Notes under the pieces: generated by a model
Seen by the model: only the letters and a program-made list of their open reading frames with translations
Told to the model about the DNA's origin: nothing
Database searches by the model: none
Source: Leptolyngbya sp. NIES-3755
GTDB taxonomy: Bacteria > Cyanobacteriota > Cyanobacteriia > Leptolyngbyales > Leptolyngbyaceae
Direction of reading: 5' to 3'
Assembly (NCBI GenBank): GCA_001548435.1
Contig: AP017308.1
Span: 2,923,030 to 2,987,029 of the forward strand
Length of the DNA: 64,000 nucleotides
Part shown: positions 5,543 through 27,054 of the stretch, piece by piece
Layout of the letters: each line of letters opens with the position of its first letter
How positions within the stretch are numbered: position 1 is the first letter of the stretch
Position numbers and translations under genes: made by a program

Positions 5543-6813
5543 ATCAATTGACGATCGAGAATTTATCCTTTACCTATGCAGGACAATCCAAACCTGCTTT
5601 ACAAGGTATTAATCTCTCAATTTCGTCGGGTGACATTGTTCTGATCACAGGCGCAACCGGAAGCGGTAAGAGTACATTGCTCAATTGTTTGGCTGGAATT
5701 GCACCTTCCTATACGGCTGGAACGTTGAGCGGTGAGATTCTTTATCAGAATCAATCAATTTTGACGTGGGACATTAAAGCGCGATTGCGTTATCTCGGCT
5801 TTCTGCTTCAGAATGTGGAAACACAAATTTTTACCGATCGTGTGAGCGATGAAATTGCGTTCGGTCTAGAGAATCTCAATCTATCACCCGAACAGATCCC
5901 GAATTTGATCGAGACTGCACTGCAAGAATTCGGCTTAGTTCAACAACGAAACTGGACGATCGAACAACTCTCAGCGGGACAAAAACAGCGATTAGTAATT
6001 GCTTGCATTCTGGCAATGAAACAGCCGATTTTGATTATGGATGAACCGTTTGCGTATCTCGATCGTGCTAGTGCAGCTTATCTATTAGAGCTATTAAAGT
6101 CGCGTGTAGCACAAGGACAAGCGATCGTTTTAATTGAGCATCGATTAGATTTAGTGCAATCGATCGCAACTCAAACGCTGCATCTACCGCAAGAGCGATC
6201 GACAACTCAGAGCCGTTCTGAAGAAGCTACAACTCTACTCGATCGCGTTGTCTTACACTGTCGAAATCTCAGTTGGGGTGGTTATCCTGCGTTTCCTGAT
6301 CTCACTGTTCATGCAGGAGAAACAATCTTACTTCAAGGTGACAATGGCTGCGGTAAAACAACATTGTTAAAGCTAATCAGCGGATTACTCAGACCCACTA
6401 CAGGGACGATCGAGCTTTTAGGACAACCCCAACCGCGCCGAATTGTGGATATCGCTCGTTCGGTTGGCTTTGTCTTGCAGAATCCGAATCATCAGCTATT
6501 TGCGGAATCGGTCAGGCAGGAGGTTCAGGACAATCTAGAGATGTTGACGCAACTAAATTTAGAGACACAGGCAGAACAGCATCCTCGATCGCTGTCTCAA
6601 GGACAAAAACGCCGCCTGACTTTGGGTGCAGTTCTCGCTCGTCGCCCCAAGATTTGTCTGCTCGATGAAATCACAGTTGGACAAGATCCAACATCCCTGA
6701 GTTTGATGCTGAACCTACTAAAACAATTTACCCAAGCAGGCGGCGCAGTCATTGTTACCAGTCACGATCCACAGGTTGCAAATCGATTGAATGCAAGAGT
6801 GATCAAACTCTAG
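5539..6813 (+). CDS. ECF transporter ATPase, two CbiO/EcfA domains fused
   Basis: A 424-residue protein with two complete ABC ATPase domains, equivalent to the EcfA1/A2 pair. Domain 1 has Walker A GATGSGKST, signature LSAGQKQR and Walker B ILIMDEPF. Domain 2 has Walker A GDNGCGKTT, signature LSQGQKRR and Walker B ICLLDEITVG. I chose ATG 5539 (MNQLTIENLSF) because it overlaps the T-component stop as ATGA and begins exactly at the ABC fold; the frame is open upstream but inside the T gene. It ends 4 bases into the convergent VOC gene. Confidence 0.93.
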   Translation: MNQLTIENLSFTYAGQSKPALQGINLSISSGDIVLITGATGSGKSTLLNCLAGIAPSYTAGTLSGEILYQNQSILTWDIKARLRYLGFLLQNVETQIFTDRVSDEIAFGLENLNLSPEQIPNLIETALQEFGLVQQRNWTIEQLSAGQKQRLVIACILAMKQPILIMDEPFAYLDRASAAYLLELLKSRVAQGQAIVLIEHRLDLVQSIATQTLHLPQERSTTQSRSEEATTLLDRVVLHCRNLSWGGYPAFPDLTVHAGETILLQGDNGCGKTTLLKLISGLLRPTTGTIELLGQPQPRRIVDIARSVGFVLQNPNHQLFAESVRQEVQDNLEMLTQLNLETQAEQHPRSLSQGQKRRLTLGAVLARRPKICLLDEITVGQDPTSLSLMLNLLKQFTQAGGAVIVTSHDPQVANRLNARVIKL

Positions 6814-7184
6814 TGCGCCATTGATGCGCCAGCGGGTTGCGGTGCAGGTTGAAGCAAGCTGAGAAGATGACCGTCAGGAGTTCTGACCGCTGCAACTTTT
6901 CCGAAAGCGGGTTCTCTGACTCGTCCTTCGAGAGTTGCACCCCTGTCTTCGAGAGCTTTGATTGCAGCATAGACATCTTCAACATGAAAACTCAGAATCG
7001 GTGAGTCTCCGACATTGCTGACACTTTCTGCGGCATGAAACGCGATCGTCGTTCCATTCGCATCGAGTTCCGCCCATCCAGGACTTGCCATTTTGACCGG
7101 AATTCCTAATCCCTCACTGTAAAACTTCACGCTTGCCATCACATCTTTGACCATTAACATGACGTGCTTAAATTCTGCTGCCAT
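6810..7184 (-). CDS. VOC (glyoxalase/bleomycin-resistance) superfamily protein
   Basis: A 124-residue single-domain protein with the vicinal-oxygen-chelate pattern: HVMLMVKDVMASVKFYSEGLG at the start, ILSFHVEDVYAAIKALEDRG in the middle and a C-terminal AAVRTPDGHLLSLLQP strand. Members bind a divalent metal and act as lyases, dioxygenases or binding proteins; the substrate is not deducible. It starts 5 bases after the CobN stop and is presumably co-transcribed with it, while its 3' end overlaps the convergent ECF ATPase by 4 bases. Confidence 0.85.
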   Translation of the reverse strand: MAAEFKHVMLMVKDVMASVKFYSEGLGIPVKMASPGWAELDANGTTIAFHAAESVSNVGDSPILSFHVEDVYAAIKALEDRGATLEGRVREPAFGKVAAVRTPDGHLLSLLQPAPQPAGASMAH

Positions 7185-7189
7185 TCGAT

Positions 7190-10100
7190 TTACCTCACTG
7201 TTGTTTCTGTTTTTAAGCCTAGTTCAATTTGAGTTTCAATGTCACGATAAATTTGCTGTAGTTGTTCGCGTTGTGTTTCGTTTGCCTCCCAGTATCCGCG
7301 ATAGTCAGCTTCACCTAGCTTACGGATGATTTCTGCTTCTGCATATCGATTATTTTCTAGCATTCGCTCTCGCATTTCCGCATCGAATACAAATCGTTCA
7401 GCGACTCGGCTCCAAGTGGCAGTTCCCACGCTTCGAGTCGTCGCATCTAAACCGAGTAAATATTCGACGCGATCGGCGATCGCTTGCCCTCCTTGATGCG
7501 CGTGATTCAGTATCCCATCAATCCATTTCGGATTAAACAATCGACTAGTCACACCTTGCCGAACCGCTTCCGCGATCGTTTTCACTTGAATGCGTTCTTT
7601 CGTCGTATCTGCGATTAAAACTTGCGGTCGATCGCCACTAATCAACGTCGCTGCTTGTGCCATTCCGCCAAAGAATTCGTAGTAGTGATCAATATCGGTC
7701 ACTTCAAATTCGTGAGAATCGCGCACTTGAGTGATGAATTTCGTGCGTCCGAGTGCGGCAGTGAAAGCCTCTCGTGATTCAGTTCCGGTTAATCGATCTC
7801 CATACAAATATTGAGTACGATCGATGTACATTTCTCCCAAATCCGCTTCACTTTCCCAAGCTGCGGTTTCAATCATCGTACTGAGTCGATTGCCGTATTC
7901 GCCCGGAGGTGGACCAAATAATCGAGCCGAAGCTAACCGAAAATCAAGCTGTTCACTCGTGGCTAATGTGTGTCGTCGAACTGCATTTTGATCCAATGGC
8001 TCATCAAGTTGAGCAACCATTTGAAATGCCAGATCAATTAATCGAACGAGATTCGGAAAGAGGTCACGGAAGAAACCACAGATGTTAACAGTGACATCAA
8101 CGCGAGGACGATTCAATTCTGCAATTGGAATCACAACCGGACGCATAAAGTAACCTTGTCCACGATCGACTCTCACTCCGATGTACCGCAAGATTTGCCC
8201 AATCGTTTCTCCATACGTTTTACAAGTTTCAAAACCCCACAAAATCACGCCCACTGCATCAGGATAATTTCCATGTTCTGTGTAGTATCTGGAAAGCGTT
8301 TCTTCTGCGATTTGTGCGCCCCGTTCATAAGCGCTATCAGTCGGTAACTTTGTCGGGTCAAACTGATACGTATTGCGTCCAGTCGGATAAGTGTGTGGAG
8401 TTCGTACTGGATCACCACCCAATCCAGGCTCGATGTATTTACCATCTAGAGCATCAAGCAGCGATCGTACTTCGTCAGTCGCTTCGATCTGTTTTGCGAT
8501 CGCGCTGAGATAGTTAAACGCAGGTTGTAAGCTTTTTTCAATTGAACCGCCAGATAAGAACTGTGCAATCAGCGATCGACTTTTCTCGCCTAGCTCGATC
8601 ACTTTAGAATCCGCAGAATCGAGTAGATCATCATAATTCCAACCGTGTCGCTGGGCAAGCAATCTAGGTAGAGATGGTGTTTCAGGGCGATCGTACCGAG
8701 CAACCAAAGTTAGATAATCAATCAGTGCATCATCTTGCAAGCGATGACCAAATGTATGCAATCCAATCGGAATGGCAACGCGCTTCAGTTCAAATAAATC
8801 AAGATGCAACGTTTCTAATGCAGCTTCATAAAGCTCCAATTCTTCAATGTTCTGTTTCAACTCATCGGTAAGCAACAATGGCACATCGTTTTCATCGCAC
8901 ACTTGGATAATTTGGCGAAGAATTGCGATCGCTCTCGGTAAGCTTTTCGTTTTCTGATCCTCGTATTCATCGAGCAAATCTTCAAGTTCAGTTAAATGCT
9001 CATACAGTCCTGCTGGTACAAACGTTGGAGACGCATAGCTGACGAGTTGAGCATAGCTGCGACGTTTCGCGATCGTGCCTTCAGAAACATTCACCACATG
9101 ATAGATATAACTATTGGGTAAAGTTCCGAGCAGCGCATCGGGCACAGAGTTTTCATCTAATGCAACTTGCTTTCCGGGCAAAAACTCGAATGTTCCATGC
9201 GTTCCCACATGAACCACAGCATCAGCATTCCAGCCCTCTTCTAACCATCGATAAAAACTAATATATTGATGATGTGCAGGCAAACTATCGTCGTGATGCA
9301 GCTTGCTTGGGTCTTCATGCACACCGCGTGAGGGTTGAATTGCAACGACAACGTTTCCGAACTCAATTCCTGCAATCAGCAAATCAGTACGATCGACCAT
9401 TAGATTTCCAGGTGGCGCACCGAATATCGACTCAGTTTGCTTTTGAATCGAATCGGGTAAGCGATCGTACCACTGCAAATACTGTTCTAGCGGCACTCGA
9501 ATGGCATGATTCGCCGTTAAATGAACCGAAGTAAAATCGCCATTGTGCAACAGTCCTCGATCGAGAAACAAATCTTTCAAGGTTCCCGATTCAGGTGGCG
9601 TAACTGAGTACCCTGCTTGCTGCAATTGATGTAAAAGATGTTCCACCGAAGCAAACACATCTAAAAACGAAGCAGTTCCTAACGTACCTTCGCTCGGTGG
9701 ATAGTTAAAAATGACGATCGCAATTTTCTTCTCTAAATTTGCCTTACGCTGTAGCGCAATCCGTTTCAAAATGCGCTGTGCCAATCGTTTCCCACGTCCA
9801 AGAATTGGTGTTGCGGCTCCCTGCTCATTTAATCCATAAATAATAACCGGATCGATCGCACCATCCAACTCTGGAAAAGCAACGGTCGAGAGCGTTTCAA
9901 CAGGTGGCAATCCTTCAGCGGTTTGCTCCCACACTGCGATTTCCCGATTGTTAGAAGTAACTGCGACATAGTACGGAATATTTAGTGTTTTCAGCAATGC
10001 GATCGTGCGTTCTGCATCGCCGCCCAACGGTCCGCCATCTAACCGAAACCATAAGAGGGATACGATCGCATCACAAATCGGAGCGCCATCAAGAATAAAG

Positions 10101-11052: not shown

Positions 11053-11778
11053 TCAACTAAGATAATTCAATTCAGTCGTCAGCCAATCCCGGAACATCCG
11101 AGCTAGAACTTCTTGATGTCGCTCTGGGGTTAACTCTGCTGGAACGAACTCTTCCACCATGAATAAATGAGCCGCTTGATCGATTAGCATCGGACCACTC
11201 ACCTGACCGGGCGGGGTACTAAACACGATCGCAGAAACATCAGGTTTAAGATTCCAGCGATATACCTTGCCTTCATACCCACACTGATATCGACGACTAT
11301 CATCCATATCGTAAAGGTGTGCAGCTTCGTAAAAGCTAATTTCTTCTTCCTCGATTTGATAGGCAATCTCTTGTGCAAGCTGCAAATACGGCACAACAAT
11401 GCGATAGAGCAGAACTTGATCAAACTCGGAGCGATTCTCAGCAAAAAATCGTTCTACTTCTTTAGAAAACAAGACTTGAGCGAGTTTATCGGCTTGTAGG
11501 CGATCGCGAATTCCAGCTTCCCAGTCTTCTGCACTGATCAACTGATCCGAGAGCCAAGCTAAGGTATCACTCGCTCGAAACAATCGATTCTCATAGCGCA
11601 TTCGGTCAGCTTCGACTTGGATTTCTTCAGGTGTAACGGTGATTCCTCTGGCTGCGATCGCCTGCTCGATAATCTCTTGCTGAGCCACCGATCGACAAAT
11701 CTCTTTCAGTTGCAAGCTCTTCTTCAGTGCAAAAATGATTTTATCGGGTTCTATGTCTCCTCCCTTAAAGCTAGTCAT
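11053..11778 (-). CDS. parvulin-like peptidyl-prolyl isomerase (SurA/PpiC-type) beside peptide genes
   Basis: The 241-residue product has an N-terminal helical SurA-like region (about 1-110: QQEIIEQAIAARGITVTPEEI, then EDWEAGIRDRLQADKLAQVLF) and a C-terminal parvulin-like segment (about 120-235). The latter has the pattern A..I....SFYEAAHLY....GYEGKVYRW...IVFSTPPGQVSGPMLIDQAAHLFMVEE. No signal peptide is apparent, so it is probably cytoplasmic or co-exported. It lies 24 bases behind a double-glycine leader peptide gene on the same strand and is probably co-transcribed. Parvulin-like proteins of this form are commonly associated with cyanobacterial peptide-export loci. A folding or escort role for the peptides is inference. 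Confidence 0.8.
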   Translation of the reverse strand: MTSFKGGDIEPDKIIFALKKSLQLKEICRSVAQQEIIEQAIAARGITVTPEEIQVEADRMRYENRLFRASDTLAWLSDQLISAEDWEAGIRDRLQADKLAQVLFSKEVERFFAENRSEFDQVLLYRIVVPYLQLAQEIAYQIEEEEISFYEAAHLYDMDDSRRYQCGYEGKVYRWNLKPDVSAIVFSTPPGQVSGPMLIDQAAHLFMVEEFVPAELTPERHQEVLARMFRDWLTTELNYLS

Positions 11779-11802
11779 CTTTTTACCCTTGATGCGTGTG
11801 TT

Positions 11803-12084
11803 TTACCAAAAAATCTGTGGAGAACCGTCCCCAAACTGATTAATCACAATAAAAATAGGCATTGAGATGTTGGTTGAGATCGCAGTATTCCCGATCGAGG
11901 TTCCGCCAAGGTTTGCCACCGTTGCAGAAGCGGCAGGATTAATATTTAACGATTGTAGAATGGGCTGGAACAGGGAGAATAGAGCACTCTGTCCAATATT
12001 GCTTAGCTGACGATGCCGCCGTCGTCCTCCAAGAATAGAGGTCTCAAACTCTTCTTCTACATAATCTATATCAGCAATGATCAT
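11803..12084 (-). CDS. divergent double-glycine leader peptide (93 aa)
   Basis: A small protein beginning MIIADIDYVEEEFETSILGG, which matches the leader layout of the three other small genes nearby (Met, hydrophobics, acidic residues, then GG at 19-20). Cleavage after GG would release a core of about 73 residues that starts with a basic RRRHRQ stretch and is otherwise Ile/Ser/Asn-rich, without cysteine. Its core differs from the other three, so it may be a distinct class or the partner of a two-peptide system. It is the gene closest to the parvulin-like gene. Function unknown; identification rests on the leader and context. Confidence 0.7.
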   Translation of the reverse strand: MIIADIDYVEEEFETSILGGRRRHRQLSNIGQSALFSLFQPILQSLNINPAASATVANLGGTSIGNTAISTNISMPIFIVINQFGDGSPQIFW

Positions 12085-12127
12085 GGTTGTTATCCTGAAT
12101 CAGAAATAGGTTGGAAAACTTGGAACA

Positions 12128-12162
12128 TCGATCTCCGACTGCTCGAAAACATCGGAGATCGA
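12128..12162 (-). terminator. hairpin after a leader-peptide gene
   Basis: An 11-base perfect stem (TCGATCTCCGA / TCGGAGATCGA) with a 13-base loop lies 35 bases past the stop of the peptide gene at 12197. On the minus strand it is followed by a T-richer stretch (TTCCAAGTTTTCC) rather than a clean T run, so it is either a weak terminator or a processing/stability element between adjacent peptide genes. Confidence 0.5.
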
Positions 12163-12196
12163 ATGTTTAGGCATCTAGATTGATGCAATCCGCAAT

Positions 12197-12415
12197 TTAA
12201 GCACCGAGAACGATCGCGCCTAAACCACCCGTATTGATCTGCAAGCTACCACCACTCGTGAGCGAGGTGCTACCACCAGGACCTGAAGTGGCGGTCGTTT
12301 GCATCAGCGAGGTGTGTTGATTGAAGTATGTCGTGTTGAAAGACAGGTCGAGACCGCCTTCGAGGTCGGTTGCTTCAGCGGTGATTTCTTGATAGCTTAA
12401 GTCTGTGATAATCAT
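12197..12415 (-). CDS. double-glycine leader peptide (72 aa), copy related to 12991-13209
   Basis: The leader MIITDLSYQEITAEATDLEGG ends in GG at residues 20-21, the usual cleavage signal of peptidase C39-type exporters. The predicted core (about 51 residues) has no Cys, Lys or Arg, contains TSGPGGST and ends GAIVLGA. The leader is nearly identical to the 12991-13209 gene and the core shares the Ser-Gly-Pro-x-Gly-Ser motif and the C-terminal VLGA. A good ribosome site (AAGGAGAAAAAG) precedes the ATG. It is preceded by a 93-bp element duplicated upstream of the sister gene. Probably a secreted bacteriocin-like or signalling peptide; no activity can be read from sequence. Confidence 0.8.
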   Translation of the reverse strand: MIITDLSYQEITAEATDLEGGLDLSFNTTYFNQHTSLMQTTATSGPGGSTSLTSGGSLQINTGGLGAIVLGA

Positions 12416-12450
12416 CTTTTTCTCCTTTGTAATTCGGTGATTTTGTTGTT

Positions 12451-12543
12451 AACAACTCTGTAGAAGCTGTTATGTATAAGATAGCGATTTGAGCTAGTAG
12501 ATAGGGGATTTCTTGCTATTTATGTAGCCAAATTGGCTGAGTT
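12451..12543 (-). repeat. 93-bp duplicated upstream element, copy 1
   Basis: This element, 35 bases before the peptide gene at 12415, matches 13246-13338 over its full 93 bases. The first 33 bases are virtually identical (AACAACTCTGTAGAAGCTGT and onwards), the rest diverged. On the coding strand it carries a minus-10-like CTTATACATAA. It probably contains the shared promoter and 5' leader. Confidence 0.8.
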
Positions 12544-12632
12544 CTTTTGTGAGTTAGTTCAAGGTTTTATCAACAGCAAAAATAGCACGCTTAAACCATA
12601 AACGTGCTGGGAAATATTCTCGATCGTAAGTT

Positions 12633-12866
12633 CTAGAAAGTCCAAAAACCTGACGGGTTCGCGCCTAGAACAAGCGCACTCAAGCCGAAAGTAGAAATAT
12701 CTAAACGCCCAATATTTGAGAAAGCTGAGCTTCCATTTGGACCAGACATTGCACCACTTTGAAAGATGGACATCAGTTGGTGATATGCGGTTAGAGTTGC
12801 TGCCCAATCTGTTCCACCTTCGAGCGTATCCAAATCAGCCGCAGTTTCCAGATCAGTAATGACCAT
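12633..12866 (-). CDS. double-glycine leader peptide (77 aa)
   Basis: Third member of the local family. The leader MVITDLETAADLDTLEGG ends in GG at 17-18. The core contains the family motif MSGPNGSSAF and GLSALVLGA, but extends a further eight residues (NPSGFWTF) beyond the VLGA end of its sisters. No cysteines. A GGAGAGGAACATG ribosome site precedes the start. Its upstream region lacks the 93-bp element found at the two sister genes, so it may be transcribed from the upstream peptide gene or from its own promoter. Confidence 0.78.
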   Translation of the reverse strand: MVITDLETAADLDTLEGGTDWAATLTAYHQLMSIFQSGAMSGPNGSSAFSNIGRLDISTFGLSALVLGANPSGFWTF

Positions 12867-12892
12867 GTTCCTCTCCTTGGATATTAGAAATA

Positions 12893-12918
12893 GCGCATTT
12901 GTGCTGCCAGAAATGCGC
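12893..12918 (-). terminator. 8-bp inverted repeat between peptide genes
   Basis: GCGCATTT and AAATGCGC form a perfect 8-base stem around a 10-base loop, 70-100 bases past the stop of the 12991 gene and about 27 bases before the 12866 start. There is no T run on the minus strand, so attenuation or mRNA processing is as likely as termination. Confidence 0.35.
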
Positions 12919-12990
12919 CATTTATGCCGAACTTTAAGAGCAGAGTAGCAGAGAAGATTTGAGAATCATTCTACTGTATCGCTGTGTAGA

Positions 12991-13209
12991 CTAAGCACCT
13001 AACACGATCGCATTGAAGCTGCTGGTGTCGATTTTGACGTGCTGAGCATTGGTAAATGAACTGCTTCCAGCCGGTCCAGAGGTTGATCCAGATTGCATGA
13101 CAGCAAGGCTTTGTTCAAAATGAGTTGCATTGATAGAAAAATCTACGCCGCCTTCAAGCTCATTCGCTTCGGTTGTCACTTCTTGATAGCTGAGATCAGT
13201 GATAATCAT
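12991..13209 (-). CDS. double-glycine leader peptide (72 aa), first of the array
   Basis: The leader MIITDLSYQEVTTEANELEGG has GG at 20-21; the core (about 51 residues) includes TSGPAGSSSF and ends NAIVLGA. It is the same length as the 12197-12415 product and clearly paralogous to it in leader and core, with no cysteine. The upstream 93-bp element (13246-13338) is shared with that paralogue, so gene and promoter were duplicated together. The product is probably exported and leader-cleaved, but no C39-type exporter is encoded in this window. Confidence 0.8.
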   Translation of the reverse strand: MIITDLSYQEVTTEANELEGGVDFSINATHFEQSLAVMQSGSTSGPAGSSSFTNAQHVKIDTSSFNAIVLGA

Positions 13210-13245
13210 GATGTTCTTCCTTTGTTTTGTAATGTTTTCTTGGAT

Positions 13246-13338
13246 AACAACTCTGTAGAAGCTGTTATGTATAAGATACCGTTTTAGATTTAGAGACGGG
13301 GTATTTCTTGCTGATTATGTAGCCAAACTGGCGCAGTT
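13246..13338 (-). repeat. 93-bp duplicated upstream element, copy 2
   Basis: Second copy of the element at 12451-12543, 36 bases before the 13209 start. Same length without gaps; the gene-proximal third is the most conserved, including the minus-10-like CTTATACATAA on the coding strand. A second conserved block is GTAGCCAAA near the distal end. Confidence 0.8.
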
Positions 13339-15091: not shown

Positions 15092-16117
15092 TTGGAAAGA
15101 GTTTTGGGAGACGATGCTTCTAAGACAGAAAAGATTTGTCAACCTGACTCATTTGAGGTTTGCCATTCCTGGAAAAGCGCCTTGTGTCAAGGGTACATGC
15201 GTCGTGTAGAATTGCGAGATCTTTGGTTAGAGATCGAGGAACGTCGAGTCACCAAAGACGTAGTTTTCAAGTTTGAATCTGCCAGTTGGGGACCAGTTTC
15301 CGGCTTTTTTGTCACAGGAAGCTCAAAAAATCGCTACTTAGATCTGACTTGTGAAAACGCCGAAACTCCTGGTCGCAACTACCTGGAAAGTATTCAATCG
15401 GGAATCGAATTTAATTATCTTTTTGCAGCCGAACCCGTCTTAAGAGTGCGCTTAGGCTTTCAAAGAGATGCACTGATGCGATTTCAGGACTTCTCAACCT
15501 TGCCTCCAGAGCTAGTTCCTTTAGTTTGTGGAAAAGCAGCCTCATCGTTCTACCGCCAAGGCAACACAACCCCAGAAATGCAGGTGATTTTGCATCAAAT
15601 CTTGCATTGCCCTTATCAGGGAGCCATCAAGCAGATGTATTTGGAAGGCAAGGTGCTAGAACTCGCTGCTCTTCAGTTTGTTCAACTTTTGGAGACGAAC
15701 CGTTCTTCACATCAAGAGTCTGCATTCAAAGCAGATGAGGTGGAGCGGTTGCACCATGCCAAAGACATTCTGATGCAACAGTTTGAAAACCCGCCTTCGA
15801 TTTTGGCACTCGCACATCAAGTTGGGTTGAATGACTTCAAGCTGAAACAAGGATTTCGTCAGGTGTTTGGAACAACAGTATTTGGCTACTTGCGGGAATA
15901 TCGCTTAGAACAAGCTCGTCTGTTACTCGCGGATGGACAGTTGAATGTACAGCAAGTAGCGCAAGCGATCGGGTATGCTCATGCGGGATATTTTGCTAAT
16001 GCCTTCAAGCGCAAGTTTGGCATAAATCCGAAGGCATATCGATCCCACTCTGCTCAAGCTACGATCGATGCGTCAAAAAATCCACCCAGTGCTACAAATA
16101 ATCCGTTGAGTAGCTAA
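15092..16117 (+). CDS. AraC-family regulator (PchR-like), apparent frameshift at the 5' end
   Basis: Transcription regulator with a ligand-sensing N-terminal region and a C-terminal double helix-turn-helix (about residues 225-330: LALAHQVGLNDFKLKQGF, then VAQAIGYAHAGYFANAFKRKFG). PchR-type proteins activate siderophore receptor genes when the siderophore is bound. The frame given starts at TTG 15092 and gives 341 residues. A better family N-terminus (MSLMYLERDWKEFWE) lies in another frame from ATG 15066, aligning with the paralogue at 25992-26993 (FDIDCEDLWQ); a one-base indel near 15090-15110 would join them. Either a frameshift mutation, a sequence error or a true TTG start. It directly precedes the interrupted receptor. 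Confidence 0.85.
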   Translation: MERVLGDDASKTEKICQPDSFEVCHSWKSALCQGYMRRVELRDLWLEIEERRVTKDVVFKFESASWGPVSGFFVTGSSKNRYLDLTCENAETPGRNYLESIQSGIEFNYLFAAEPVLRVRLGFQRDALMRFQDFSTLPPELVPLVCGKAASSFYRQGNTTPEMQVILHQILHCPYQGAIKQMYLEGKVLELAALQFVQLLETNRSSHQESAFKADEVERLHHAKDILMQQFENPPSILALAHQVGLNDFKLKQGFRQVFGTTVFGYLREYRLEQARLLLADGQLNVQQVAQAIGYAHAGYFANAFKRKFGINPKAYRSHSAQATIDASKNPPSATNNPLSS

Positions 16118-16154
16118 AACAGACTTCATTTCTCGTGTTGTTCAGTTTAGACTT

Positions 16155-16183
16155 ATTGCAAATAATTCTCGTCTATTTGCAAA
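16155..16183. promoter_or_regulatory. 21-bp-spaced direct repeat with Fur-like core before receptor
   Basis: TTGCAAA occurs at 16156-16162 and again at 16177-16183, exactly 21 bases (two helical turns) apart, as expected for an AraC dimer. The interval also contains AATAATTCTC, a Fur-box half pattern (12 of 19 to consensus over 16155-16173). The receptor ATG is 25 bases downstream. Confidence 0.55.
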
Positions 16184-16207
16184 AGTCTTTGGGTTGAGGA
16201 AGTTACG

Positions 16208-18655
16208 ATGCAAGTTCAACGGTGGGTATGGCTGTGGAGTGTTCTGTCAGTTTTGATAGTTCCCTGTTTCAAAACAGAAGCTGCAAAAGCAGAAGGGGAA
16301 CAACAGTTAAGTCATGGGACTGCTCCTGTTTCTCAGATCAATCCGCGACCTGCCACAACCGTCAAAGAATGGATGGCACAAGTACAAGCTGCTACGGTTC
16401 AAGTCACGGCAGTGACCCTTAATCCTGTTGATACTGGGCTAGAAATTCTGCTGCAAACCGCAGACGCAAGACCACTCTCTATTGATTCCTCTAGATTTCG
16501 ATCGCAAGGAAATCAACTCATTGCAGAGATTCCCAATGCAGTACTCACATTGCCTCAAGGATTTAGAGCGGAGAATCCAACCGCTGATGTCGCCCAAGTT
16601 CAAGTCGTTCAACAAGATGCCAATACGCTGCGAGTCATTGTCACGGGAAACAATGCTCTTCCTCAGCAAGATGTGAGGCTTAGAACAGGAACCTTTGTTT
16701 ACAGCCTCAAGCCAGAAGTAGATGAGCCAGATGAAGAAATTGTTGTCACAGGCGAAGAGCAGGGAGGTTATCTTGCTCCGAATGCTTCGACTGCAACTCG
16801 CACTGATACGCCCATACGCGATACACCTCAATCGATTCAAGTGATCCCCAGACAAATTATCGAAGACAAACAAGCGATCGGGGTTGAGGAAGTTCTGGAG
16901 AATGCAGCAAGTGTGACCTTTTTGGGCAATCAAGATGGTCGCGGTCTGAACTTTGCGATTCGAGGGTTTGAGAATGCTCCCATCTCGCGGGATGGCTTTT
17001 TCTATCGATTTGGACCAGATCTGGCAGAACCAGAAGTTGCGAATCTGGAACGAGTGGAAGTGCTAAGAGGACCTGCATCAGTCTTGTATGGTCAGGCAGA
17101 ACCGGGGGGCGTGATTAATCTAGTCACAAAGCAGCCTCTATCAGATCCGTTTTACCAGCTTCAATTCCAAACAGGCAATCGGGGGTTGATCAGTCCTAGT
17201 ATCGATCTATCAGGACCCTTGACTGACGATAAACGAGTGCTTTACCGTCTGAATGCGCTTTACCGTCGAGAAGATAGTTTTCGGGACTTCGAGAATAATC
17301 TCGATCGCATCTTTGTCGCTCCCACATTGACCTGGAAACTCAATGATCAAACGGACTTAACTTTGAATGTTGAGTACACGAAAGATCGGGAGCCACTTAA
17401 CTTTGGAACGATCGCATTTGGGGAGGGGATCGCGAATATTCCGCCAGAGCGAATTGTGAACACCAATCCTGACAATACGATCGAACAAGATTTCTTGAAT
17501 GTCGGCTATACCCTAGAGCATCGATTTAATCCGAATTGGCGACTGAGAAATCAGTTGCGCTATAACGCCAGCAACTATGAAATCAGCGTTTTGCCAATTC
17601 CGTTTTCTCTGGATGAATCAACTGGAATTCTCGATCGAGCGTTTGCGGCTCAGAGTGGAAAAACAGATGCCTTTTTTCTTTATACCAATGTTCAAGGCAA
17701 GTTTAATACAGGTTCTATCAAGCACACTTTGCTGTTTGGAGTTGATCTCACTCGTGCGGAAAGTGCAGGAGAAACCAGAGTGGGATTCGATCCTGAATTT
17801 GCGAGTCCTATCAATATTTTTGCTCCAGATTATTCAGCGACTCCAACTCCTTTGCGGGCAAGCATTCCGGTTTTTATCGACATTGATACGACGACGGAGC
17901 AGCTTGGAGTTTACCTGCAAAACCAGATTGAACTGTTGGACAATTTAATTGTAGTAGCAGGCTTACGCTACGACACAGTAACTCAAAAAACAATCGATAA
18001 TCTCGAAAGCTCTGAGTTTCGGCAATCTTATAGTGCATTCACACCCCGAATTGGCATTGTCTACCAACCGATCGAGCCGATTTCACTTTATGCAAACTAC
18101 TCTCGCTCCTTTGCGCCGAATCTCTCTGATGTCGAATCCGCAGGAACACCATTAGAGCCAGAAGAAGGAGAAGGGATTGAGGTTGGAGTGCGAGCCGACA
18201 TCATTCGCAATCGTCTTGCAGCGACACTTGCATTTTTCAACATTACTAAGCAAAATGTGGCAACGACTGACCCCAACAATCCTTTTCTATCGATCGCAAC
18301 CGGAGAACAACGGAGTCGAGGCATTGATTTCAGTTTGACTGGACAAATTCTGCCGGGTTGGAATCTTGTTGCTTCTTATGCTTACATTGATGCAAAAGTG
18401 ACAGAAGACAATACCGATATTGTGGGCAATCGTTTGATCGGTGTTCCTCAACACAGTGCAAGCTTATGGACCACTTACGAAGTTCAATCTGGAAATTTAC
18501 GAGGATTAGGCTTTGGACTGGGATTTAACTTTGTTGGAGAGCGGCAAGGTGATCTAGACAATAGCTTTAGGGCGGATAGCTACGGGAGCGTGTCACCTTC
18601 TGAGGAGAAAAATGAGAATAAAGGAAACCGATTCCTGAAGAGGTTCCCGCGATGA
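16208..18655 (+). pseudogene. AMIN-TonB siderophore receptor, 5' part, interrupted by an insertion sequence
   Basis: Outer-membrane siderophore receptor: signal peptide, AMIN domain (about 55-170), TonB-box region DEEIVVTGEEQGGY, plug (about 195-315, LERVEVLRGPASVLYGQAEP) and barrel. Native sequence runs to base 18583 (792 codons, ending RADSY); there an insertion sequence enters, and the frame continues into it to stop at 18655, adding an unrelated 23-residue tail. The missing last 56 residues, including the terminal Phe needed for barrel assembly, lie at 19770-19940. Rejoined after removing one target copy, it gives an intact 848-residue receptor. Close paralogue of 23328-25847. The truncated product is probably non-functional, although the insertion looks recent. 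Confidence 0.92.
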
Positions 18656-19760
18656 CTCCTGAAGACCAACAAGCGCTGAATGCCCATGTTCAAGCGATTG
18701 CAAAAATCTTGTACAACGATGCTGACAAAAGCCAGATAACGAATTTGGCAGAAATCGAAGCGATGGTGCGAACTCAAGTGCAACAGCACGTCACACCAGG
18801 ATTAGGGAGTTTTTTATCACAGCAGTTACCGCCACAACTGAAGGCTACCCGCGACGGTTGAAAAGTATCTTAGGAGAACTGCAATTGACGAGTGAACAAG
18901 CGACACGATTAGGGGTATCTGCGAGAAGCCAAATGAGTCCTTACTTGGAAGCGTGCTGTTTGAGAGCGAGTGCAACGGTTTCCTATGCCCGCGCAGAACG
19001 AGACATCGCGGTGTATACAGGAATGCGCGTCAGCGCCAAAACGCAACAACGATTAGTCCAGCGACAACCGTGGGAAGAACTTGAACCCGAAGCGCCAGAG
19101 CCGATTCTGGAAATCAGTATTGATGGCGGCAATGTGAAGTTAACCAGTGGCACTCAAGACGAACCGGACTGGCGACAGTACAAAGCCGTTCGCATCAATG
19201 GCAAGGGAGAAAGTCGAGCTTGGTTTCAGGACAATGAGGCATTGGTCGCAACAGTGAGCGCGCGTCCGATGGCAGAGGTCGTTGTCTGTCTGGGCGATGG
19301 ACACGACGGCATCTGGAACTTGCATCAGCAGATCGTCGCGTTGAGCGAGCAACGGATTGAGATTCTCGATTGGTATCATCTCAAGGAGAACTTGTTCAAG
19401 TTATCGAGCGACGAAATCGACCGAGAACAGATAGAAGCTCAGTTATGGAAAGGAGATGTGAGCGCTGCTCTAGCCCAATTAGCGGCGTGTCCCTCCGATG
19501 AGGCAGAGCGGTTTTGCAACTATCTGCTGAAGCATCAACATCGGATTGTGAACTACGACTACTACGCGGCTGAGGAGCTATGTTCGATTGGGTCAGGAGC
19601 CGTGGAATCGTTGGTCAAACAAATTGATCAACGGTTGCAGATTGTTGGAGGTCGGTGGAAAGCGGAGCATATTCCGAAAGTGCTGGCACAACGCTGTGCT
19701 TATCTCAATGAGCAACTGAATCCCACGACATCTATTCTCTCAAGAAGGTGACACGCTCCC
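18584..19760 (+). mobile_element. ISKra4-family insertion sequence, complete (1177 bp)
   Basis: The ends are perfect 18-base inverted repeats: GGGAGCGTGTCACCTTCT at 18584-18601 and its complement at 19743-19760. They are flanked by a 9-base direct duplication GATAGCTAC (18575-18583 and 19761-19769). The element carries one transposase split across two frames. Intact ends, clean duplication and an uninterrupted host gene on both sides indicate a recent insertion. Family named from the transposase sequence. Confidence 0.93.
18652..19751 (+). CDS. ISKra4-family transposase in two frames joined by a likely -1 frameshift
   Basis: The upstream part starts at ATG 18652 and stops at 18861 (69 codons); the main part is in the -1 frame, stopping at 19751. 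A slippery heptamer T TTT TTA sits in phase at 18810-18816. A -1 slip there gives an unbroken 366-residue transposase, with no stop in the -1 frame between 18816 and the main part. Catalytic DDE-like acids are visible: SIDGGNVKL, CLGDGHDGIWNL and GSGAVESLVKQ, plus the LDWYHLKENL block. The start overlaps the truncated receptor's stop as ATGA. The final codons and stop lie inside the right inverted repeat. Confidence 0.9.
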
Positions 19761-19940
19761 GATAGCTACTTCCTCACCAATGCTGCTCTGTTCTACCGCC
19801 GCGATCGCTGGCAAGTGCGCCTCAATGTTGATAATCTTTTTAATGTTGACTATATCAGTGCAGTTAGCAACAGTAGACTGCGCGGAATCTATCCAGGAAA
19901 TCCGCTGACTGTCCGAGCTTCCGTTTCAGTAGAATTTTAA
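19761..19940 (+). pseudogene. C-terminal remainder of the interrupted TonB receptor
   Basis: After the second target copy (19761-19769) the receptor frame resumes as FLTNAALFYRRDRWQVRLNV and continues through NVDNLFNVDYI to the terminal VEF and a TAA. This is the end of a TonB-dependent barrel and supplies the last 56 residues of the gene starting at 16208. There is no start codon or ribosome site of its own. The downstream binding protein gene begins about 30 bases later and may now depend on read-through or on element promoters. Confidence 0.9.
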
Positions 19941-19972
19941 TTTCTCTTGTGATTGCGAGGACTCAGACAGTG

Positions 19973-21025
19973 ATGAAAATCGTTGCGTTCACTCGATTAG
20001 TGACGTTTGCGCTACTGACAATGATTGCGATCGTAGCTTGTCAGGGTGATGTTCGCCATTTGAGCATAGAGTCTAGCTCTCCTTTACCGAATCGGTCTCA
20101 CTGTCGGACAGTTAAACATGAAAGCGGAGAGACCAGCGTTTGCGGTCAACCCAACAGAATTGTGGCACTTGAACCCTATGCGCTAGAACCTTTATTGGCA
20201 CTAGGAATTCAGCCAGTAGGGTTTGCAGACCATATCGCATTTCACCGAGGAGACTATGCAAATCCTAGTCAACAAATTCCCTATCTAGGGAAGCAAATGA
20301 CTCGTTCCCTTGTAAATCTTGGTTTGGATTCCAGTCCTTCGATCGAAATGATTCTGAAACTCAAGCCTGATCTAATCGTAGGGCTTCACCAGAATAACGC
20401 GGCTCAATACGCAACTTTCTCTAAAATTGCCCCTACCGTGTTAATTAATTATGGAGAGACAGAAGCAAATCTGAAGACGATCGCAAAAGCAGTAGATCGT
20501 TCCAAACAAGCTGAACAAGTGTTAGCCGAAACACAACACTCGATCGCGATCGCTCGTGAAACGTTTGCTCCCTTAGCTACAACACATTCAAAAGTACTAT
20601 TGCTTTCTGCATCAGAACTGCACGAGATGTCTCTAGAAAGCCCTATGGATGCTTGTGGTTCGCTGATTAAAACCTTGGGATTTCAACTGATGGCTTTATC
20701 TGAAGCTGCGAACTCCAACGCATCCAAGTTCCTTTCTCTCGAAGCATTGCCAGACTTGAATGCGGCTAACTTAATTATTGTTCTAGGAAGCAATTTTAGT
20801 GATCAGTTGAAGGGTGAGGATTTTGCAACTCATCAGCTCTTTAAGTTAAAACAGGCTTGGAAAACGAATGCGATCGCACAATCTTTAGATGCTAGTAAAT
20901 CCGGGCGGGTGTATTTCATTCCCGTTTATCTTTGTCGAGGTCTACCGGGTACGATCGGTACACAACTCTATCTCAACGAACTTCAGAAACAACTATTATC
21001 GGATTATGGCTCCAGTTACGATTGA
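19973..21025 (+). CDS. siderophore-binding lipoprotein (FecB/FhuD-type periplasmic protein)
   Basis: Captures ferric siderophore in the periplasm for an ABC importer. I chose ATG 19973, giving a lipoprotein signal (MKIVAFTRLVTFALLTMIAI then VAC) with Cys about residue 17-20 and GAGG upstream; a GTG at 19949 is possible. The class III binding-protein fold is evident: PNRIVALEPYALEPLLALGI, PSIEMILKLKPDLIVG and IAPTVLINYG, with the long connecting helix after it. It follows the interrupted receptor in the same direction, so the insertion may be polar on it. No permease gene is adjacent. Confidence 0.88.
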   Translation: MKIVAFTRLVTFALLTMIAIVACQGDVRHLSIESSSPLPNRSHCRTVKHESGETSVCGQPNRIVALEPYALEPLLALGIQPVGFADHIAFHRGDYANPSQQIPYLGKQMTRSLVNLGLDSSPSIEMILKLKPDLIVGLHQNNAAQYATFSKIAPTVLINYGETEANLKTIAKAVDRSKQAEQVLAETQHSIAIARETFAPLATTHSKVLLLSASELHEMSLESPMDACGSLIKTLGFQLMALSEAANSNASKFLSLEALPDLNAANLIIVLGSNFSDQLKGEDFATHQLFKLKQAWKTNAIAQSLDASKSGRVYFIPVYLCRGLPGTIGTQLYLNELQKQLLSDYGSSYD

Positions 21026-21036
21026 GAAATCCAAGT

Positions 21037-22293
21037 TTAGGTATGCTCACTAGATTGATGAACGTAAGCAAAATAACCATAAAACCCGATCGCAATCATA
21101 CTCAGGGCACAAGTCGTATAAATCAAAGCAAAACCCGCGCCGGGACTCGAACCAAAAATCCATTTTACTAATCCTGTAGAAGAAGCCATCGCAGGTTCAA
21201 CAATACGATCGCCCAACGGACCCGCGATCAATGCTGCAACTGCTGACAAACATTGCGCCAGAAACGAATTCGCCGCAAACACTCTTCCCTGTGCCTCTGG
21301 GCTAACTCTTGCCATCCAAATTGCCGTCTCAGAACTATCCATCAACGGAAAATTGAACGAAGAGCAAAACTGAGCCGAAAGCCAGACTTGCGGAACTCGC
21401 CCCAATCCTACCGTCATTTTGCTTAACCCTGCCCCGATCATCGAAACAAGAACGCCTCGAATCGGTTGTTTAAAGCCTCCCCAAACTGTCACCGCGATCG
21501 CGCCTGTGACTCCACCCATTCCTGCTGCTGTGCCAATCTGACCTAATACGGCTGCACTGCCATTGGTTCTTGCCAAAATCATTGGAGCATACAGCACCTC
21601 ACCTAAGTCATGCACAAAGCAAAATGGAAGCACTAAAACGAGTAAGTTGCGTAAAGCAGCATGAGTCAGCAGGAACCGAAAGCCAAACATCAGATCTCGT
21701 CGGAAGTTGAATCGGCTAAATTGCTCTGGTTTGACAGGTTGGGGAATTGCGCGAGGCAGAAGGGTCACGATCGCAACTAAAAACGTTAGACTATCAATTC
21801 CTAAAATACCGCTCACTCCGATCATCGGATAAAGACTCGCCGCGATCGCAGGTGCAACAATCAGTGAACCATAGTGCAATGCTGATCCCAGACTACTGGC
21901 ACGAGTATAATGCTGCTCAGGAATTAGCAAACTGATTGAAGCCGAGTAAGAAAGTTCTTGCAGTTGGCTGAAGATGCTTGCGATCGCAGTCGCCAAATAC
22001 AAATGCCAAATTTGCAGATTGTGAGTTAGGTATAACAGCAGTAGCACTAAGCTAGAAAGTGCTGTAATCGTATCTCCCAGTAACATAAGATATTTACGGT
22101 TAAAGCGATCGACGATCGCACCAGAAACCAAGTTGATCAGGATTCGGGGCACTTGGAAAAAGAAGCCGATTAGAGCGAGAGGCGTTGCGGAACCCGTTGT
22201 TTCCCACGTCCACAGTTCGAGAGCAAATCCGGTCATGTAAGTGCCGATCGTCGAAACAAGCTGACCAAACCAGAGGATAATAAAAGTACGCAT
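21037..22293 (-). CDS. MFS transporter, probable siderophore exporter
   Basis: A 418-residue major facilitator with about 12 hydrophobic helices. It has the loop motif GAIVDRFNRKYLMLLGD between helices 2 and 3 (a version of the MFS signature) and resembles EntS-type exporters in its opening (FIILWFGQLVSTIGTYMTGF). EntS-like proteins export siderophores from the cytoplasm. It is the last gene of the receptor-binding protein-MFS run on the minus strand, starting 24 bases after the binding protein stop. Its 3' end faces the other binding protein gene with 11 bases between them. Export substrate is inferred from context; there is no synthesis gene beside it. Confidence 0.82.
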   Translation of the reverse strand: MRTFIILWFGQLVSTIGTYMTGFALELWTWETTGSATPLALIGFFFQVPRILINLVSGAIVDRFNRKYLMLLGDTITALSSLVLLLLYLTHNLQIWHLYLATAIASIFSQLQELSYSASISLLIPEQHYTRASSLGSALHYGSLIVAPAIAASLYPMIGVSGILGIDSLTFLVAIVTLLPRAIPQPVKPEQFSRFNFRRDLMFGFRFLLTHAALRNLLVLVLPFCFVHDLGEVLYAPMILARTNGSAAVLGQIGTAAGMGGVTGAIAVTVWGGFKQPIRGVLVSMIGAGLSKMTVGLGRVPQVWLSAQFCSSFNFPLMDSSETAIWMARVSPEAQGRVFAANSFLAQCLSAVAALIAGPLGDRIVEPAMASSTGLVKWIFGSSPGAGFALIYTTCALSMIAIGFYGYFAYVHQSSEHT

Positions 22294-22316
22294 TCCAATC
22301 GGATTAACTCACATTT

Positions 22317-23312
22317 CTAAGAATCAAGTAGATACTTAACTAAATCATCAAGGATCGCGTTAGCAGAAAGAATATTACCAAAAATCCAATACCCCGAACT
22401 AACGGTGTAAACCTGATGCTGTTTTACTGCTTTGAGCGTTTGCCATAAAGGGCTATCAGTGTATTGCTGAAAGCTCTTTTCGGCTCCTGGATCGAGTGCG
22501 ACGAATATTACATTGGCATTGAGCCAATCAATGTTCTCTAGGCTAACCATGACATATCCCCAATCTGAGTGGGGAAGTTGCTGCTGCTGGCGCTGAAATT
22601 CCGGAATCGATAATATTTTAAGCTCCTCTAAAACATTTATTTGAAAGGATCGATCGTTGAGAAACTGTGTGAATTGGACATTCGTGTAGAATCGCATCAC
22701 ACAGACCTTTAAGTTTCCAGTCTTTTGAGCAAATCTTAATCGTAGGGTGTCAATCCGCTGCTGATAAGCTACGAGTAATTTTTTGGCTTCCTGACTACGA
22801 TCGAGATTTTTTGCAACTTGTCTCAGGATATCCTTCCAACCCGTCTGTGAGTATTGAATTGGTAGTGTTGGTGCAATTTGAGAAAGAACGGAATAGATTT
22901 GAGGTGTGAGATACAACCCCATAATCAAATCAGGCTTTAACTGAACTATTTTTTCTAGATTCGGTTGACCTTCTTTGCCTAAATCTGCAATAGTTCTGAT
23001 CCTGTCTCGTAGGATAGGTAGTTTGCTTCCGACAAGATTTGGAGTTGTAGTAGCAATTGGATTGATTCCCAATGCTAATAAAATCTCTAAACTTTCTTGA
23101 TCCATGACGATCGCACGTTTCGGGCGGCGTGGAATACAGCTTTCTCCAAACTCATGTTGAGCAATCTGGCAATCAGAGGATGTATTCTTCGATGGATAAT
23201 TTTGAGACGTTTGGTTGATCATGCCATAGCAACTTTGAAGCAAGGCAATTAATAGTAGAAGTATTATCAATCGCTGAATGTGCTTTCGATAAAGCCGATA
23301 AACTATAGTCAT
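22317..23312 (-). CDS. siderophore-binding lipoprotein, second copy
   Basis: A 331-residue FecB-type periplasmic binding protein with an N-terminal hydrophobic stretch ending LLQSC, a probable lipobox. Fold markers are PKRAIVMDQESLEILLALGI, PNLEKIVQLKPDLIMGLY and IAPTLPIQYSQTGWKDILRQ. It follows the second TonB receptor with an AGGAGG ribosome site overlapping the receptor stop, so translation is coupled, and precedes the MFS exporter. Only distantly similar to the 19973-21025 protein, which suggests a different siderophore class. Confidence 0.88.
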   Translation of the reverse strand: MTIVYRLYRKHIQRLIILLLLIALLQSCYGMINQTSQNYPSKNTSSDCQIAQHEFGESCIPRRPKRAIVMDQESLEILLALGINPIATTTPNLVGSKLPILRDRIRTIADLGKEGQPNLEKIVQLKPDLIMGLYLTPQIYSVLSQIAPTLPIQYSQTGWKDILRQVAKNLDRSQEAKKLLVAYQQRIDTLRLRFAQKTGNLKVCVMRFYTNVQFTQFLNDRSFQINVLEELKILSIPEFQRQQQQLPHSDWGYVMVSLENIDWLNANVIFVALDPGAEKSFQQYTDSPLWQTLKAVKQHQVYTVSSGYWIFGNILSANAILDDLVKYLLDS

Positions 23313-23327
23313 GTCACTGTTAGCCTC

Positions 23328-25847: not shown

Positions 25848-25951
25848 CCGTCTATCCTCTACACCTAATTTTGAGAATCTTCTATAACGCTTTGTTGGGA
25901 AGCTTTCTCAACTGCTTAGACTGAATCGTATCGTGAACCATGGCTTACTAC

Positions 25952-25992
25952 TTTGCTGAAACGGAATTTTTGTTTGTTGAAACGGAACTTTT
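25952..25992 (-). promoter_or_regulatory. tandem 20-bp direct repeat, AraC-type operator candidate
   Basis: TTTGCTGAAACGGAATTTTT (25952-25971) and TTTGTTGAAACGGAACTTTT (25973-25992) agree at 18 of 20 positions with a 21-base period. They lie about 105 bases before the receptor start at 25847 and touch the stop codon of the AraC regulator gene. This arrangement fits an AraC activator dimer site. Confidence 0.65.
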
Positions 25993-26993: not shown

Positions 26994-27035
26994 ACTTGAA
27001 ATTTGCTGCAACGATGACGTGTGTACCCTACCATA

Positions 27036-27054
27036 AATGAGAATTATTAGCAAA
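27036..27054. promoter_or_regulatory. Fur-like box before the second AraC regulator
   Basis: AATGAGAATTATTAGCAAA matches about 14 of 19 positions of the Fur consensus, 42 bases upstream of the regulator ATG at 26993. It would tie the regulator to iron status, as for the first copy. Confidence 0.6.

Follow-up and report, generated by a model that had tools for sequence, protein, structure and literature searches.

A cysteine-free double-glycine peptide array with HetP-type leaders in Leptolyngbya sp. NIES-3755, a probable detached cargo cassette of a HetC-like exporter

A 64,000-nucleotide stretch of the Leptolyngbya sp. NIES-3755 genome (positions 2,923,030–2,987,029 of contig C1 in the 6.76-Mb genome, labeled G000; the whole stretch is called the window here) carries on its minus strand four genes for small peptides with double-glycine (GG) leaders, followed by a gene for a parvulin-like protein. 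Here, we propose that this array probably encodes, as a detached cassette, the cargo of a HetC-like exporter of the long C39 type, and that its unmodified cores are secreted, perhaps as surface or matrix peptides. The proposal builds on what was observed of gene content, conserved gene order, membership of the cores in a known family, leader similarity, exporter phylogeny, and the loss of a catalytic histidine.

The five open reading frames (ORFs) are present on the minus strand as originally predicted. In gene order, peptide 1 (12991..13209, 72 aa), peptide 2 (12633..12866, 77 aa), peptide 3 (12197..12415, 72 aa), peptide 4 (11803..12084, 93 aa), and the SurA/PrsA-type parvulin-like protein (11053..11778, 241 aa) are separated by gaps of 124, 217, 112, and 24 nt, and a purine-rich stretch lies 5′ of every start. 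Peptide 1 has the leader MIITDLSYQE…LEGG and the core motif SGPAGSS, and peptide 2 has a shorter leader (MVITDL…LEGG) and SGPNGSS. Peptide 4 belongs to a GG-leader family without a Pfam or NCBIfam name, with the signature LGGxSIGNT…NIxMP. The common leader start MI/VI-x-D-L described earlier holds for peptides 1–3, but peptide 4 reads M-I-I-A-D-I. Similarly, the motif SGPxGSS, ascribed to three cores, is found in peptides 1 and 2 but is SGPGGST in peptide 3, and the supposedly shared VLGA end is followed by eight further residues in peptide 2. All four peptides lack cysteine, as claimed. Judged by sequence, the array is more than a product of chance, because a curated family is matched by three peptides, with two scores above the cut-off, and peptide 4 matches five other genomes. 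The earlier description, a parvulin-like protein accompanying secreted-type peptides with GG leaders, appears right, export being predicted.

The curated family is NF038167 of NCBIfam (CTB family bacteriocin, cyan_ocin_like; cut-off 32 bits), which peptides 1 and 3 match with 40.0 and 33.7 bits and peptide 2 with 31.3 bits, just under the cut-off; peptide 4 exceeded the cut-off of no Pfam or NCBIfam family, NF038167 included. The matches of peptides 1–3 begin at profile positions 15–21 and thus cover the core and hardly any of the leader (the match of peptide 1 spans positions 19–71, that is, the core), and the classic CTB leader of profile positions 1–20 was not recognized in the three. Ten related peptides behind the DNA element described below (L025, L026, L027, L029, L237, and L239) also match NF038167, four of them over the cut-off, and all ten matches likewise start at position 15–21. 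When ten array peptides of other loci were scanned against Pfam and NCBIfam, no family exceeded its cut-off.

The same genome encodes an ordinary CTB peptide at C1:5,226,153, with a classic leader and an adjoining short-type C39 exporter, and leaders and cores were compared with it by alignment score against 500 shuffles (leader 2 was left out). Cores 1, 2, and 3 scored 47, 45, and 56 against its core, where shuffle means were 22–24 and no shuffle reached any of the three scores, whereas core 4 scored 20, reached by 371 of 500 shuffles. The leaders behaved differently: leaders 1, 3, and 4 resembled the classic leader no better than shuffles did (92, 208, and 268 of 500 reached the score), whereas only 6, 4, and 0 of 500 shuffles reached their scores against the tail of a HetP-like protein of the same genome. 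By these comparisons, the array leader differs from the usual CTB leader and is of the MIIxDLxYxE…GG type, which is also found at the ends of HetP-like proteins encoded next to C39 exporters of the HetC-like kind. One core family is therefore coupled to two leader types within one genome. In other words, the array shares with the CTB bacteriocins the cores of peptides 1–3, a GG leader, and the lack of cysteine, but differs in having the HetP-type leader instead of the classic ELSxEELExVxGG, in lacking an adjoining exporter, and in including peptide 4, which lies outside the family. A short distance beyond the window (G000:C1:3000237-3001570), another short C39 exporter gene has four ordinary CTB genes in its vicinity, together with a fifth, weak match.

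The HetP-like tail belongs to an exporter cassette elsewhere in the genome. The statement that no exporter is nearby is true within the window, but a matching cassette lies 1.94 Mb away. Among the six C39 places of the genome, C1:990,811-993,819 encodes a HetC-like long exporter with C39 and ATP-binding cassette (ABC) domains (C39-ABC; 1003 aa, C39 domain 144.8 bits), and genes for HlyD (518 aa) and a HetP-like protein (116 aa, tail IKDLTYVESIESHESSPKGG) come after it. The HetP_family match at C1:988711-988884 scores 112.9 bits against a cut-off of 45, so that two features of HetC, the C39 domain and the adjacent HetP-family gene, are present. When a leader pattern drawn up after the peptides were known was run over the 19 kb around this exporter, the HetP-like ORF was the single match among 155 ORFs of 35–260 aa; the 18–19 kb around each of the other five C39 genes gave zero matches. 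By BLASTP, the exporter shows 66% identity to the exporters linked to arrays at loci L028 and L029, compared with 52%, 41%, and 31–34% for the other five C39 proteins of the genome against the L028 exporter. Identities of 76–78% to the exporters of genomes G002, G004, and G027 and of 69–71% to array-linked ones were also found, against at most 54% to the other C39 proteins of its own genome.

These data bear on a more conventional explanation, a classical bacteriocin array whose cores kill related cyanobacteria and leave the cell through a short-type C39 exporter (C1:2,995,827 or 5,227,810) of ordinary CTB clusters. NF038167 is named as a bacteriocin family, ordinary CTB genes do lie near short-type C39 exporters in this genome, and the nearest of these, at 2,995,827, is ~60 kb from the array. 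However, the leaders are unlike that of the ordinary CTB peptide compared, the short-type exporters are 31–34% identical to the array-linked type, no immunity-like gene was recognized among the ORFs read (no dedicated search was made), and as many as seven leader peptides occur per locus. We consider this explanation improbable. The nearest exporter (C1:2,995,827) is disfavored as a partner because of leader type and exporter similarity.

Relatives of the array tie peptide 4 to the parvulin-like gene. A search with the single peptide 4 sequence found it in 6 of 144 genomes, its own included and the other five at 53–82% identity, and a profile search found it in 8 of 388, again including its own. 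In all eight genomes, peptide 4 is encoded on the same strand within 0.9 kb upstream of a parvulin-like gene. The order CTB-like peptide(s), peptide 4, parvulin-like gene is kept in the window and in L025–L029, with an additional ORF of 159 or 192 aa separating the last two in L028 and L029, and peptide 4 directly precedes the parvulin-like gene in L064 and L127. In L028 and L029, the whole array adjoins genes for HetP-like, HlyD, and long C39-ABC proteins; L064, L137, L139, L141, L144, and L145 likewise combine peptide 4 with genes for HetP-like and C39 proteins. The best-conserved stretch of peptide 4 is its core. An AlphaFold model of peptide 4 was not used (pLDDT 51). Homologs with a conserved leader, GG, and parvulin linkage therefore do exist in other genomes, one of the two points on which the original prediction had staked itself. 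The peptide 4 family may have expanded at L144 (~6560-8830, Calothrix sp. CSU_2_0), where the cores of four peptides contain the repeat NSIGN(T/V)A.

A contig scan with the parvulin alignment gave 58 loci, of which 36 have HetP-like, 34 HlyD, and 33 C39 genes and 33 a leader peptide. A peptide 4 match of at least 25 bits was found in 11 of the 58, always upstream on the same strand; nine exceed 50 bits, and the hosts include Dulcicalothrix desertica PCC 7102 and several Calothrix. This set repeats genomes of the 388-genome search (L128 is G004, L129 is G027, L132 is G019, and L175 is G380) and overlaps with the set of 47 loci described below, and the counts are not additive in either case. One contig (L184), labeled Candidatus Gracilibacteria, has a parvulin gene and leader peptides of cyanobacterial type, probably a metagenome binning error.

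The separation of array and exporter recurs. In four genomes with peptide 4 (G002, G004, G027, and G380), no C39 gene was found around the array, up to ~9 kb on each side, and the best exporter of the same type is encoded elsewhere in the genome with 63–78% identity. In a FastTree phylogeny of 90 exporters with a midpoint root, all 13 exporters labeled as coming from peptide 4 genomes, including that of the window's genome, are placed within one clade of 19 members (local support 0.999). Further exporter copies of these genomes with their own arrays (L077 of G002 and L096 of G028) belong to other clades.

Detachment could also mean decay, the array being a remnant severed from its exporter with export lost. 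The physical split itself, the lack of a C39 gene in the stretches around the G002, G004, G027, and G380 arrays, and a transposase-like ORF with the same protein start near both the array and the exporter cassette are in line with this. On the other hand, all five ORFs are open in the window, as are those of peptide 4 and the parvulin-like protein in the detached copies L025, L026, L027, and L127; the leaders, the upstream element, and the parvulin-like protein (81% mean column identity over six) are conserved; and the conservation of peptide 4 peaks in the core. Decay thus appears very unlikely. The transposase-like ORF (297 aa, named by eye) is found at window 18858-19751, L023 11767-12660, L030 2071-2964, and L031 6911-7804, that is, near the array, the HetC-like exporter cassette, and two other C39 clusters, and it may have helped split the array from the exporter.

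The leader also marks the neighborhood of the parvulin subfamily. The parvulin-like family was detected in 260 of 388 genomes (1e-10). We compared 47 loci (the window, L025–L029, the best-scoring L064–L103, and L127, added as a holder of peptide 4; 306–501 bits, some genomes represented twice) with 19 control loci (L108–L126; 175–198 bits) chosen, without taking all rows, from a lower-scoring parvulin group of about 179–198 bits; several of the loci are on short contigs. Within 10 kb, the 47 loci have HetP-like genes in 33, HlyD in 34, and C39-ABC in 33 cases; a D-L-x-Y-x-E…GG peptide occurs within 6 kb in 33, and peptide 4 (at least 25 bits) in 9. The corresponding numbers for the controls are 1, 16, and 16, with leader peptides in 3 and peptide 4 in 0. 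Because of these counts, the link to HetP-like genes and to the leader is specific to the parvulin subfamily, whereas the link to C39 and HlyD is general for the parvulin family. In the 47 loci, 66 of the 3373 ORFs (35–260 aa) lying no more than 6 kb from the parvulin gene matched the leader pattern, as opposed to 0 of 2576 such ORFs beyond 6 kb in the 47 loci and the controls together. A small Ser-rich protein (67–73 aa, …DGxxxAEAxSxVI…) is encoded at L066 10171-10392, L071 9048-9260, and L077 4764-4967, and two of these three genes are immediate neighbors of the parvulin-like gene.

In the 66 loci, 28 of 34 HetP-like proteins have a looser form of the leader motif and GG in their C-terminal part, and similar C-terminal ends occur in the HetP-like proteins next to the G002 and G027 exporters and, on another contig, the G004 exporter. 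In L130, L131, and L135, which belong to the peptide 4 exporter clade, a HetP-like protein was the sole ORF with the leader within 3 kb upstream of the parvulin gene. We tentatively consider that D-L-x-Y-x-E…GG might be the signal by which exporters of the HetC-like branch dock and cleave their substrates, in which case the HetP-like tails would themselves be cut and the proteins partly exported, and a dispersed peptide regulon with its own two-box element would share the signal. If true, the class of cargo carried by HetC-type exporters, possibly including HetC itself, would thereby be identified.

The same neighborhoods suggest a signaling role, in which the cores, or leader fragments staying in the cell, would serve cell–cell signaling tied to HetP-like proteins. 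A 2024 study describes HetC as a driver of heterocyst differentiation whose cargo is unknown (PMC10986499). The presence of HetP-like genes near the parvulin gene (33 of 47 loci) and of a similar leader in 28 of 34 HetP-like tails fits such a role. However, the cores are ~50 aa long and of low complexity, in which they differ from known signals, and the Leptolyngbya host is not known to form heterocysts. A signaling role is unlikely on balance.

The parvulin-like protein retains the fold but apparently not the chemistry of its relatives. Its PF00639 domain scores 30.1 bits, above the gathering cut-off of 21.7. The AlphaFold model, built with 35 sequences, has a pLDDT of 92.8 and a pTM of 0.74, and Foldseek returned PrsA and SurA structures with low whole-chain TM-scores (~0.3–0.5), whereas the peptidyl-prolyl isomerase (PPIase) domain alone gave a TMt of 0.80 to 4g2p with a good overlay, in agreement with PF00639. 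The position of the conserved first-strand histidine of parvulins, which we take to be a catalytic residue, was placed at residue 126 by HMMER alignment to HP_0175. This residue is Gln in 26, Arg in 6, and Lys in 3 of 35 homologs, and the catalytic histidine is thus absent in all 35; His204 is retained in 24. The maximum of the mean hydropathy over 15-residue segments near the N-terminus is at most 1.11 in 34 of 35 homologs and 1.95 in one, and the protein has no evident signal peptide. Because the catalytic histidine is replaced, chaperoning is likelier than prolyl isomerization, and we infer that the protein works in the cytoplasm as a chaperone or adaptor and that its isomerase activity is low or absent. 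The suggestion that the peptides fold through prolyl isomerization at Ser-Gly-Pro is accordingly not supported and no longer the leading idea, also because the same parvulin subfamily accompanies other cores.

Membership in the TIGR04500 peptide maturation family was rejected (55.4 bits, far under the cut-off of 180). The weak profile match nevertheless points to a distant parallel: in graspetide clusters with TIGR04500/MirC, a precursor peptide likewise has a SurA-like partner protein, and a C39 exporter is part of the same cluster, although no graspetide synthetase was recognized at the array. MirC is described as required for modification and as co-purifying with the modifying enzyme, and its C-domain as unlike the PPIase domain of the closest structure (PMC13097080), whereas the parvulin-like protein keeps the PPIase fold.

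On this basis, the following sequence of events can be envisaged. The parvulin-like chaperone would hold the precursors unfolded in the cytoplasm or pass them on for export; the C1:990,811-993,819 exporter, through its C39 domain and together with its HlyD partner, would recognize the leader by hydrophobic-D-L-x-Y-x-E and cut after GG; and the unmodified, Cys-free cores, rich in Ser, Ala, Gly, Thr, and Asn, would exit the cell. The exported cores may then act as surface or matrix (biofilm-type) peptides and not as classical toxins, an assignment that we favor with modest confidence because of the composition of the cores, the lack of a recognized modification or immunity gene, and a precedent in Synechococcus elongatus. 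In the 58-locus scan, S, A, G, T, and N predominate in the cores of the 75 leader peptides encoded near parvulin genes, and one of the 75 contains cysteine. Neither a modification enzyme nor an immunity gene was recognized among the ORFs read, no dedicated search having been made. In S. elongatus, four GG peptides (EbfG1–4) are secreted with the help of the C39 protein PteB, are found extracellularly, and promote and are needed for biofilm (PMC4997328). Their genes are close to the exporter gene, unlike the array of the window.

The DNA upstream of the array suggests how it is transcribed. A two-box element (GCCA..TTGGC-TACAT and TATACATAACAGCT…AGTTGTTA) occurs on the minus strand at 13245..13332, before peptide 1, and at 12450..12537, before peptide 3, peptide 4, and the parvulin-like gene; it was not found directly before peptides 2 and 4 or the parvulin-like gene. 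A terminator-like hairpin (12584..12608, minus strand; 10 pairs and a T-rich tail) lies 3′ of peptide 2, a weak call on its own since four hairpins were found in the region against 2.1 in shuffles. Because of the element copies and this hairpin, the array suggests two transcription units, one running from the element through peptides 1 and 2 to the terminator and the other from the element through peptides 3 and 4 to the parvulin-like gene, each with a presumed promoter. A candidate RNA hairpin within the element showed a double change at one of nine pairs.

Eight CTB-like genes aligned from L025–L029 have the conserved two-box stretch upstream, as do peptides 1 and 3. With up to three mismatches, the 29-mer of the second box has two sites in the genome, both at the array, and the first box has 14 sites in 388 genomes, compared with 0 for the reversed control. 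Twelve of the 14 precede CTB-like genes, but the pattern was derived from 10 of these, so that only G002:C1:1,223,351 and G004:C158:16,718 are independent successes. The other two sites, with three mismatches each, do not precede such genes, and the element was rejected as a specific marker. G019 and G028 have one first-box site each despite three such genes per genome. Co-regulation of array and exporter through the element was also rejected, as it was not seen at four exporter genes. The two independent sites lie before orphan CTB-like pairs (L237 at G002:C1:1223351 and L239 at G004:C158:16718; 72 aa plus an 80 or 89 aa class), and no parvulin or exporter was noticed in the ~3-kb stretch read.

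Several observations weigh against assigning the array to the HetC-like exporter. The two are without physical linkage in the window's genome, none of the four exporter genes examined was found to have the element upstream, and 14 of the 47 parvulin loci have no C39 gene within 10 kb in the stretch read, partly where the stretch or contig ends. The leader of peptide 2 lacks Y-x-E. Six of the 19 clade exporters have no peptide 4 of at least 25 bits nearby, and the exporter of L089 (the same as L167), which has a weak peptide 4-like array (28 bits) and was left unlabeled, falls outside the clade; peptide 4 and the clade could, moreover, travel together through vertical descent alone. As to HetC itself, the L028 exporter homolog scores 26.5 bits for an N-terminal cNMP domain, just below the Pfam cut-off of 27.5, and no cNMP domain was detected at 1e-5 in the C1:990,811-993,819 exporter despite its N-terminal extension of ~290 residues. 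Finally, export and cleavage are steps that we infer from sequence. We nevertheless regard the array as the probable cargo cassette of this exporter.

HetC of Nostoc PCC 7120 is likewise a C39-ABC exporter adjoining a HetP gene. The 2024 paper gives its substrate as unknown and describes hetC as having neither a gene for a characteristic double-glycine leader nor a membrane-fusion gene in its vicinity (PMC10986499); by contrast, the HetC-like exporters of the arrays have HlyD. The arrays thus supply a concrete leader, cargo, and one matching exporter as a testable set for HetC-type export. The group II bacteriocin clusters of Wang et al. (2011) also resemble the system, having a long C39-ABC exporter, HlyD, a rotamase called SurA, and HetP-like proteins. 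That paper reports the HetP-protein motif KIXDLXYLEX10GG, tentatively tied to an M16 peptidase, and in the sections consulted contains no statement that array peptides share it; precursors were sought within 20 kb of the clusters (PMC3140520), whereas the array and SurA-like gene studied here lie 1.94 Mb from the exporter. Searches confined to exporter surroundings miss such cargo. The full group II set is found in L028, L029, and many sister loci, and the window contains only the precursors and the SurA-like gene. Among titles and the beginnings of abstracts, with few subscription papers covered, we found nothing linking the array-peptide leader to HetP tails or describing peptide 4 or the DNA element.

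Elsewhere in the window, two large genes resembling non-ribosomal peptide synthetases and several TonB-receptor-like and AraC-like genes were noted by eye at 49644-58258 and 15092-27053; they look like siderophore and iron uptake functions.

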